From: an uncultured Acinetobacter sp.
GTDB lineage: Bacteria; Pseudomonadota; Gammaproteobacteria; Pseudomonadales; Moraxellaceae
Direction of reading: 5' to 3'
NCBI GenBank assembly: GCA_947627655.1
Contig: CANQWW010000004.1
Span: 1-46,485 of the forward strand
DNA: 46,485 nt
Shown: positions 42,634 through 46,465 of the stretch, piece by piece
Layout of the letters: each line of letters opens with the position of its first letter
Numbering within the stretch: position 1 is the first letter of the stretch
Notes under the pieces: generated by a model
Seen by the model: only the letters and a program-made list of their open reading frames with translations
Database searches by the model: none
What the model was told of the DNA's origin: nothing
Made by a program: the position numbers and the translations under genes

Positions 42634-42660
42634 ATCAGGTGGACTGTGCTTCCACCTGAT
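42634..42660. terminator. Convergent hairpin overlapping the MFS stop codon
   Basis: ATCAGGTGGA and TCCACCTGAT form a 10-bp perfect stem with a 7-nt loop. The left arm includes the MFS gene's stop codon, so the dyad is partly coding. There is no good T-run on either strand, so termination strength is doubtful. Confidence 0.45.
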
Positions 42661-43801
42661 TTGGCAAACCGGCTAAAAATGCCAATCCAAAAAGGGTTGA
42701 AGCCGCCGCAACGATAAAAATCGTGGCACCCCCGAACTCATCCCAGTATTGTCCAGCCAAAATACTCCCACCTGCAACGCCCAATCCCCACATGGTGCTA
42801 TACAAAGCCTGACCACGTCCCTGCAGACCTGCCGCGAAGTTCTGGAAGATCACTCGCATGGCAACCATATGAAACAGGCCGAAACTGAAGGCATGAATAC
42901 TTTGTGCAAGAAGTTGAGCACTAAAGGATGAAGGTAATAATCCAACCATCAGCCAGCGTACGCCAGTCAGCACCAAACAGATCATGACCAATGTCCGCCA
43001 CGACCAGCGCTGGAAAAATACAGTGGCATAGGCAAACATAATGATTTCTGCAAGCACGCCTACTGACCACAGAAAGCCAATTTGGCTGGTAGCAAAACCA
43101 TGTTGGCTCAGGAAGTTACTATAGAAGCTATAAAATGGTGCATGGGAAAACAGCATGATCAGCTCGATGAGGAAAAAACTATACACCACCGGCCGTTTAA
43201 GCACTGGACCTAAAGGTTGCAGCTGTTGTTGTGCCATGGGTGCAGCTGAAGGCTCTTTAATACTAAAAGACCAGATAAATGCCAGAAATGAAATACATAA
43301 CAATAATACCGGCAACATACTTAGCGGAATAATTTCAAAAATTGCCCCGATTGCAAATACACCGACAATAAAACCGACAGATCCCCATTTACGTACTTTG
43401 CCATATAATTCAGCGCGTTTCTCTCCCAGCCAAAACAGGGTCACGCCTTCGAATTGTGCCAGAATGGCATTTTGAAAAAAGCTGAAAATCAGCATTAGTA
43501 AGGCGACGGACTGAAAGCTATTAGGCACAATAAAAATTATGAACCAGATACAAGCTTCCATCCAGGTGGCAATCCGTACCAACAACATGCGTTTGCCAGA
43601 TTTGTCGGCAATCCAGCCCCAGATCATCGGTGCAAAGAAGCGGGTTATAATCGCAATTGAAGATAAAATGCCGATTTCGGCATAGCTAAAGCCTTGATCT
43701 TCTAGATATAAGCTCCAGAATGGCATGAATGCCCCAACGATGGCGTAATAAAAAAAGTAGAAACCGCCGAGTCGTGACTGAATGGGAAGGTTGAACATCA
43801 A
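42635..43801 (-). CDS. MFS transporter (HcaT-like, PF12832-type)
   Basis: This 388-aa major facilitator protein has about 12 transmembrane helices. It contains FYFFYYAIVGAFMPFWSLYL at the start, the loop IWGWIADKSGKRMLL between helices 2 and 3 (GxxxDxxGxR-type motif A), and a WGSVGFIVGVFAIG segment near 140. This pattern matches the HcaT/phenylpropionate-permease branch. It has no partner genes suggesting the substrate. It is convergent with the amidase. Confidence 0.87.
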   Translation of the reverse strand: MMFNLPIQSRLGGFYFFYYAIVGAFMPFWSLYLEDQGFSYAEIGILSSIAIITRFFAPMIWGWIADKSGKRMLLVRIATWMEACIWFIIFIVPNSFQSVALLMLIFSFFQNAILAQFEGVTLFWLGEKRAELYGKVRKWGSVGFIVGVFAIGAIFEIIPLSMLPVLLLCISFLAFIWSFSIKEPSAAPMAQQQLQPLGPVLKRPVVYSFFLIELIMLFSHAPFYSFYSNFLSQHGFATSQIGFLWSVGVLAEIIMFAYATVFFQRWSWRTLVMICLVLTGVRWLMVGLLPSSFSAQLLAQSIHAFSFGLFHMVAMRVIFQNFAAGLQGRGQALYSTMWGLGVAGGSILAGQYWDEFGGATIFIVAAASTLFGLAFLAGLPNQVEAQST

Positions 43802-44209
43802 AAGGTTTCGCCTGATTGGTCATGGTTGAGAATCACTTATCAGGGCATTGTATCGCATTCATTTATTTATCATTACACTTCGAGCATTTATACCTCTTGT
43901 GTTTTGGATGAGTTTTGATGATTGCTAAAAAAAATTAAGTATCAACCATTTATAGGCCCTTGGCATTTATATTTACGTCGCTTAGCCTGACTTACGCCAT
44001 TTGAGTTCTGATTTATACCGTGATGATTGAGTATATCGCATGGTGGTTGCTCATGAATTTAAGCTATCGGTAACACGACCCATTGAATCACTAAATACCC
44101 TTGATCCAAGTGAGGCTAATACCATCACGTGGCTTAATCGACTCAGAATCATATTGTAATCTCGAAAAATAAAACCTCGATATAAGCCCAGCTCTATTAC
44201 AAAGTGAGC
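43802..44209. other. 408-bp gene-free region upstream of the MFS gene
   Basis: It holds the MFS promoter region and a 39-codon ORF (44040-44159, starting MVVAHEFKLSVTRPIES) without a ribosome-binding site. That ORF reads like protein sequence but has no support as a gene; it may be a remnant. I see no repeats or RNA here. Confidence 0.4.
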
Positions 44210-44464: not shown

Positions 44465-45025
44465 ACAAAACCTATAAGTCTAAAATTTAGTTTTTATCAT
44501 GCCACAATAAAAGTAAAAATCAATTTAACCTATTGATAATGCTATATTTATATCATTATAAAGCAGCAAACCAATGAATTATTTACTCATATTTTCTGAA
44601 ATAAAATTCAGTCAGTAGAAAAAATTTAAAACCGCTAATATTTAGTATGTAGCAGCGTCTCGTATGTCGTAATCCGTCCAGTGAATTATTTGTACTTTCC
44701 ACACTTTCAACATTCGATCTGAGCGAATAGATTAGACTCATAGTCGAAGTGGTGACGGCAGAATAATCATTTTAGGAATTAGAGCATGAATTTTCTCTTG
44801 ATAAAAAACCTGCTTAGCTGGAGGGCTAATCAGGCCGGGGGACGCTATCTTCTACTTGTTATTGTGAAGTTTTAGGAATGGGGACAAGATACCATTTGCT
44901 CACTACAACTAAGTATTAGAAATACATAGGGAATGTTTTAACATGTAATAATTAAGTTATATTTATTAATAACTTGATCATCAATTAACCCTTAAGATCA
45001 GTTAATAATCAACTTGTTTTTAGTC
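44465..45025. other. 561-bp gene-poor AT-rich region
   Basis: No gene in the track. One possible small ORF, 44786-44875 plus strand, begins MNFLLIKNLLSWRANQAGG and ends YLLLVIVKF after AGGA/GAG; it has a short hydrophobic tail but no other support. Its surroundings (about 44800-44870) are GC-richer than the flanks. The region right of it leads into the tRNA-Arg-like gene. Confidence 0.4.
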
Positions 45026-45102
45026 TGGCACGCCATACAGGATTCAAACCTATATTAGTCACACTAGAATTATGATGTCTTATCCAATTAGATGAATGGC
45101 GC
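45026..45102 (-). tRNA. Divergent tRNA-Arg (UCU)-like gene, 77 nt
   Basis: The minus strand starts GCGCCAT and ends ATGGCGT-G-CCA, giving a 7-bp acceptor stem (one G-U) with encoded CCA. The anticodon arm is TCATA-ATTCTAG-TGTGA (5 bp), anticodon TCT (Arg). The T-arm is ATAGG-TTTGAAT-CCTGT. The D-arm ATCT/AGAC has one mismatch; A14, G18 and G19 are kept and A15-U48 would pair. The layout aligns base for base with ordinary tRNA-Arg(TCT). Odd points are U56 in the T-loop (normally C), C9 and the weak D-stem. It may be a working divergent tRNA or one in early decay. Confidence 0.7.
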
Positions 45103-45159
45103 TTTATTTCAGGCAAAAAAAACCTTGTTAGAACCCATTTAAAGTGTCTATATCCTCAT

Positions 45160-46465
45160 CAATAAAAATGTCCGCTTTTAGAATATGCGCTTTTGCAATT
45201 TCCTTAGCGGACGGTTTGATATGTTGGTGTCTATGTCAGATAAAGAACTTAAACAATTGCCGGTCTTGCAAGAAATCTGTGATCAACGCATAACTCAATC
45301 CCAGGCCGCTCAGCTACTCCATCTTTCAGAACGTCAGATCAGACGCTTACTACAAAAATACAAAGCTCAAGGCCCAGCTGCATTAGCTCATGCTGCACGT
45401 GGCCAAACCAGCAATTCTAAAATTCCAGAAGAAATCAGACTCAAGTGCCTCAATCTTGTCGCCGAGCAATTCCATGGTTTCGGACTGACTTTAGCGCATG
45501 AAAAGCTCACCACTATTCATAAATTCGATATTTCAGTGGAAACACTGCGTTCCTGAATGATTGCAGCCGACCTATGGATTCCTCTTTCCAAACGCCTGAA
45601 ACGCCCGTATCAACCTCGATATAACCGGGATTGTTACGGTGAACTGATCCAAATTGATGGCTCTCACCATGACTGGTTCGAAGGACGTGCAGCTAAATGT
45701 TGTCTGTTGGTGTTTATTGATGATGCCACAGGAAAATTGCAGCACTTACGCTTCTGTGAATCAGAATCAACCTTTGATTATATGATTTCAACACGTCTGT
45801 ATGTTGAACAGCATGGTAAGTCCTTAGCATTCTACAGCGATAAACATTCAGTATTCAGGGTCAATCAAAGCAGCAAGAAAGACACCAAGATTACCCAGTT
45901 TGGACGTGTACTCAGCACCCTGAATATCGATATCATCTTCGCCAATTCACCACAGGCCAAAGGCCGTGTAGAATGCGCGAACAGGACTCTTCAGGACCGT
46001 CTAATAAAGGAAATGCGCCTTGAAGGTATAAGTTCGATTGCAGATGCAAATAAATGGTTGCCCTGCTTTATTGAGCAATTTAATCGTAAATTTGCCAAGA
46101 TGGCCTTGAATCCGAAGGATCTACACCGGACTGTCACTGAAACCGCTGATGAGTTAGATGATATTTTTACCTGGCGTGAACCCCGCAGAGTCACGAATAG
46201 TCTGACCATTACTTATGATAAATGTGTCTATCTGCTAGAGAATACAGAAGAAAATCAGAGGCTCATGGGTAAATATATTGAGTTTCTAGAATACCCGGAT
46301 GGTACGGTTGCAATTGAATATCAGGGTCAAAAAATCACTTACAGTATCTTCGATAAATTAAGTCAGCTGAACCAGCGAGAGATCGTTGAGAATAAGCGTT
46401 TAGGGGCTGGTAATCCCCCCTAAAAATAAAAGGATCTAAAAGTAGAATTTTCTCTTAAGATACAA
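45160..46465 (+). mobile_element. ISNCY (IS1202-group)-like insertion element
   Basis: The transposase (next entry) identifies the group. The left end shows TCCGCTTTTAGAATATGCGC and a GTCCGCT/AGCGGAC dyad (45170-45212). The right end holds TCTAAAAGTAGAATTTTCTC (46434 onward), so CTTTTAGA occurs near both ends in inverted orientation. I cannot fix the exact ends; the right one may lie at or past the window edge. Confidence 0.6.
45221..46423 (+). pseudogene. IS1202-type transposase split by an in-frame TGA
   Basis: Two in-frame ORFs, separated only by TGA at 45554-45556, together encode about 400 aa. The first half has helix-turn-helix DNA-binding sequence (ITQSQAAQLLHLSERQIRRLL). The second has an rve-type DDE core: IQIDGSHHDWFEG (first Asp), FYSDKHSVFR (second Asp) and GRVECANRTLQDRL (Glu). 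At the break the sequence reads ETLRS-stop-MIAADLW, where IS1202 relatives as I recall them have ETLR-x-W-MI. A single TGG to TGA change would explain it. Without readthrough the catalytic half lacks its DNA-binding domain. Confidence 0.8.

Follow-up and report, generated by a model that had tools for sequence, protein, structure and literature searches.

We find that the arginine tRNA gene near the end of the analysed stretch of Acinetobacter DNA (46,485 nucleotides, here called the window) is one of a phage-borne family of tRNA-Arg(UCU) genes, lies in the relic of a prophage, and carries changes of its own at otherwise invariant sites. It is most probably a decaying copy of a phage tRNA gene that yields little or no functional tRNA. 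The kind is already known, a tRNA-Arg gene being carried by many Acinetobacter phages, and the window copy is in itself ordinary. The relevant features of the window are:

42635-43801, minus strand: chromosomal gene for an MFS transporter, at the edge of the relic (Pfam MFS_1_like, 4e-110)
43951-44105, minus strand: weakly similar end of the relic (62-75% identity to L254, L268 and L287)
44619-44808, minus strand: continuation of the relic (76-78% to phage-like DNA on C84, another contig of this genome)
44801-45017, minus strand: conserved phage flank, immediately 3' of the tRNA gene (about 80-83% to G193 and L287-L293)
45026-45102, minus strand: phage-type tRNA-Arg(UCU) gene (Rfam; ARAGORN at relaxed threshold; identity to TRS1)
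45118-46404, plus strand: ISAba32-like (ISNCY) insertion sequence (70% identical at the DNA level to the ISAba32 family element in NZ_CP051211)

A genuine but weak tRNA gene

The tRNA-Arg(UCU)-like gene reads from 45102 to 45026 and encodes its CCA end. It scores 38.3 bits with the Rfam tRNA model (RF00005; E=1.2e-4 for the whole window), above the curated cut-off of 29 bits, and covers model positions 1-71 of 71. ARAGORN did not detect it at default settings and called it tRNA-Arg(tct) at 70% of threshold; because ARAGORN finds it only at this relaxed setting, we conclude that the gene is real but weak. A first-pass annotation had described a divergent tRNA-Arg(UCU) here, and it is indeed divergent: a hand count on the alignment puts its differences from host-type tRNA-Arg(UCU) at about 29 in 77 positions, as against 6-8 from the closest phage relatives. 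As that annotation had said, the acceptor, anticodon and T stems are paired throughout; three of the pairs are G-U. What the annotation lacked was the broken D stem, where A10/C25 is the exception among 21 stem pairs, 20 of which form, leaving the gene short of four fully paired stems. This single mismatch weakens the claim of function and leaves homology untouched. A15 and U48 are both present, and U56, noted earlier as breaking the G19-C56 contact, is confirmed and reflects a C56T change private to this copy. The anticodon, A20, C35, U36, G73 and CCA are kept, and the computed cloverleaf energy is -13.0 kcal/mol, versus -17.7 to -20.0 kcal/mol for comparison tRNAs.

The usual host Pro-Arg-His-Pro cluster, which includes tRNA-Arg(UCU), was not found in the 80% complete assembly. 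The genome has a second tRNA-Arg(UCU) on contig C108 (G000:C108:7184-7260, L013), which scores 62.6 bits and departs from the usual host gene; its anticodon stem has a U/U mismatch, and position 32 is G. Its similarity to other Acinetobacter tRNAs reaches only 75-82%, so it too was possibly acquired. With the cluster not found and the C108 gene atypical, a clean comparison with the genome's canonical gene is impossible.

Membership of a phage-borne family

Sequence comparison makes it close to certain that the window tRNA is a member of a phage-borne Acinetobacter tRNA-Arg(UCU) family and of phage origin. It carries the family signature, the body AAGACATCATAATTCTAGTGTGA together with acceptor GCGCCAT/ATGGCGT, and an exact 23-mer of the tRNA body recurs in at least 75 IMG/VR contigs. 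The tRNA and 20 nt upstream are 89.7% identical over 97 nt to phage TRS1; homologues in fEg-Aba01, fLi-Aba02/03, qsb1 and TaPaz are 84-88% identical, and among 176 genomes searched (its own included) three other Acinetobacter genomes hold homologues. Shared within the family are the AT richness of the D and anticodon arms and two pairs, A15-U48 and A49-U65; the TaPaz tRNA carries the family D and anticodon arms on an entirely different, compensated acceptor stem.

The tRNA-Arg(TCT) of TRS1 (vB_AbaS_TRS1, KX268652; PMC5064099) resembles the window copy in its anticodon, D loop, whole anticodon arm and acceptor stem, and in most of the 20 nt upstream. It differs in having G10-C25 and C56, both missing from the window copy, and in scoring 45.9 bits; moreover, TRS1 is an inducible intact prophage, whereas the window copy stands in a relic. 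A literature search on the phage tRNA-Arg(UCU) family found nothing beyond the TRS1 genome note (PMC5064099).

These shared features alter two earlier claims. The A15-U48 pair described as re-made is present, but it occurs in other family members and was not re-made in the window copy. The compensated stems had likewise been read as this gene's own evolution; A49-U65 also occurs in other members, and the covariation belongs to the family.

A prophage relic truncated by an insertion sequence

The tRNA gene lies in about 1.1 kb of prophage relic between the MFS gene and the ISAba32-like element. Its 217 bp flank (44801-45017) matches at 82-83% the sequence that follows a tRNA-Trp gene in the G193 prophage, in the company of repressor, O, DnaB, NinB, terminase, portal and head genes, and also matches the corresponding place in seven viral contigs. 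The C84 stretch similar to the next part of the relic precedes HNH-like and NinB-like ORFs, and in L254 and L287 the matches to the far end of the relic (43951-44105) run collinear with those on the tRNA side. The flank on one side of the tRNA is prophage sequence and the other side is insertion sequence; neither a DUF968 nor a NinB gene was recognised within the relic. The 1.2 kb of relic DNA had no match in phage and plasmid collections at E<=0.01 and 0.001; relatives showed up only among viral contigs and genomes of the genus.

The ISAba32-like element begins near 45118, perhaps not until 45130, some 15-28 bp upstream of the tRNA gene, and truncates the relic there; the contig terminates just beyond it. 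The first-pass annotation's AGA-reading tRNA near a mobile element thus adjoins one, and is itself of mobile (phage) origin. The element's transposase is split by an in-frame TGA (45554-45556) into two ORFs of one frame, 45185-45556 and 45557-46423. A simple minus-strand scan of the DNA preceding the tRNA found no sigma-70-like site, and we infer that the gene is not expressed, although an outward promoter of the insertion sequence, invisible to such a scan, may serve it.

In A. schindleri and Acinetobacter sp. HR7 the MFS gene is conserved at 88-89% identity, and the sequence compared from these strains shows no trace of the relic upstream of it. Because the upstream neighbour of this gene in A. 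schindleri is transposase-like and matches dispersed repeats in the window's genome, the original insertion site cannot be mapped. Elsewhere, the first half of the window (194-21812) holds a type VI secretion cluster with TssM/IcmF, TssF, TssG, TssB, TssC, ClpV-like, TssK, DotU and ImpA genes.

A fixed tRNA slot in phage genomes

We conclude that the family tRNA occupies a fixed slot in phage genomes, because DUF968 and NinB neighbours recur across 82 tRNA-bearing loci: 73 of them have a DUF968 gene, at a median distance of 368 bp from the start of the tRNA, and 57 a NinB gene, without exception on the tRNA's strand. In relatives the tRNA sits in mid-prophage, upstream of the DUF968 and NinB genes, about 3-6 kb downstream of the dnaB start and before ninB.

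Attachment sites are commonly the 3' ends of tRNA genes, and the window tRNA adjoins element-derived DNA, as it would if it were a phage integration site or had been left by one. We rejected this very improbable reading on the mid-prophage position in relatives; furthermore, the annotated attP of TRS1 lies elsewhere, beside the integrase (PMC5064099). A diverged paralogue of the host tRNA-Arg(UCU), reshaped by compensatory evolution, would suit an acceptor stem near host-type sequences; but the count of about 29 differences from host type against 6-8 from phage relatives, and a flank that likewise matches phage, leave it almost no credibility, and it was rejected because the phage copies are far closer in the alignment.

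Decay versus selection

Four changes are private to the window copy (G10A, T44C, G46A and C56T in tRNA numbering), all at columns invariant in the 11 other aligned rows, which span two phage types and host. G10A breaks the D stem (A10·C25) and C56T loses G19-C56. Relative to the nearest phage allele, L226, there are 6 changes, all transitions and 5 of them GC to AT; relative to the TRS1 tRNA there are 8. The earlier claim that the stems keep more than random decay would keep fails with phage relatives as reference: random transitions simulated with the same spectrum left at most one broken pair in 50% of cases for 6 changes (L226) and 39% for 8 (TRS1), so one broken pair alone does not speak for selection, and no excess of pairing over random decay was found. 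The private changes at invariant columns also count against that claim. Covariation in the alignment is strong (two-sided changes at 14 of 21 pairs, a level reached by 0 of 500 shuffles) and is characteristic of the family and of tRNAs at large; measured against a host gene, covariation can mimic selection when the proper comparison is the phage lineage.

The covariance-model score, proposed earlier as a check, lies above the Rfam cut-off and below the relatives: 38.3 bits for the window copy, 45.1-50 for phage relatives, 53-61 for other phage tRNA-Arg/Trp and 76.1 for host tRNA-Arg(UCU). Decay has gone further in sister phages, as three viral contigs with the same flank (L288, L290 and L293) hold a wrecked tRNA copy, with no tRNA match in the slot at E<=1. 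They share flank and tRNA body with the window but, unlike it, have lost the D-loop GG, anticodon C35, acceptor pairing (several pairs) and CCA; being nearly identical, they may record one decay event.

We propose that lambdoid Acinetobacter phages carry tRNA-Arg(UCU) in a slot between replication and nin-like genes, where it presumably supplements AGA decoding in lytic growth. In the present strain about 1.1 kb of prophage is visible, its upstream side severed by the ISAba32-like element; the tRNA, freed from selection, would have drifted mainly through GC-to-AT transitions. It has lost the G10-C25 pair and the G19-C56 contact, and probably gives little or no functional product. Judged from sequence, loss of function is likely but unproven. 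That the gene is instead a domesticated or residual prophage tRNA still reading AGA is unlikely, yet not without arguments. Three of four stems are intact, the anticodon, A20, C35, U36, G73 and CCA are kept and the score exceeds the cut-off, such that the tRNA may still be charged and used; the usual host cluster was not found in the incomplete assembly; and a mismatch at the end of the D stem or U56 alone need not abolish tRNA function. Against this stand the four private changes, a score below every relative scored, the relic context with an insertion sequence starting 15-28 bp upstream, and the other tRNA-Arg(UCU), with its higher score, on C108.

Codon use and possible roles

Among arginine codons, AGA accounts for 22% in sampled TRS1 genes, 17% in TaPaz and 11% in the G193 prophage, versus 4.6% in 23 chromosomal genes of the window. 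This fits codon compensation without proving it, and agrees with the earlier suggestion of an AGA reader for acquired genes. Roles described for phage tRNAs are codon compensation or anticodon-nuclease evasion (PMC10264068). The family anticodon loop has A32 and G38, versus host-type C32 and A38, and would fit the evasion idea as well; in the main text of that paper, a search by word turned up none of Arg, UCU or Acinetobacter. Like phage tRNAs in general (PMC10264068), the family supplies a phage-carried extra tRNA for a host-rare codon; unlike them, the window copy stands outside an intact phage. That the host retained the relic tRNA after phage loss, its A32/G38 loop making it an AGA reader resistant to tRNA-Arg-cutting nucleases, seems to us quite improbable.

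Other occupants and remnants of the slot

The slot holds differing tRNAs, since a phage tRNA-Trp(CCA) occurs in it with the same flank in G193 (L246:8366-8440), L291 and L287; the acceptor and 3' end of this tRNA are identical to those of the phage tRNA-Arg. Occupied by Arg of two types and by Trp, and repeatedly decaying, the Acinetobacter phage slot offers a natural series for when a phage tRNA is worth keeping.

Upstream of prophage tRNA-Arg or tRNA-Trp genes, at a distance of about 10-53 nt and in the same orientation, lies an RNA of the Rfam family RF03046 (Pseudomonadales-1 sRNA), which may be a marker of the slot; of 30 Acinetobacter RF03046 loci checked, 9 have a tRNA at that position (one of them, L320, by inferred offset).

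RF03046 beside tRNA: L246:8201-8356, L248:5076-5241, L249:5405-5557, L311, L312, L315, L322, L323, L330, L334, L335

A tRNA remnant at G079:C9:1744584-1744659 (L039), which has kept its acceptor and T arms and lost its anticodon arm, also has an RF03046 RNA directly upstream.
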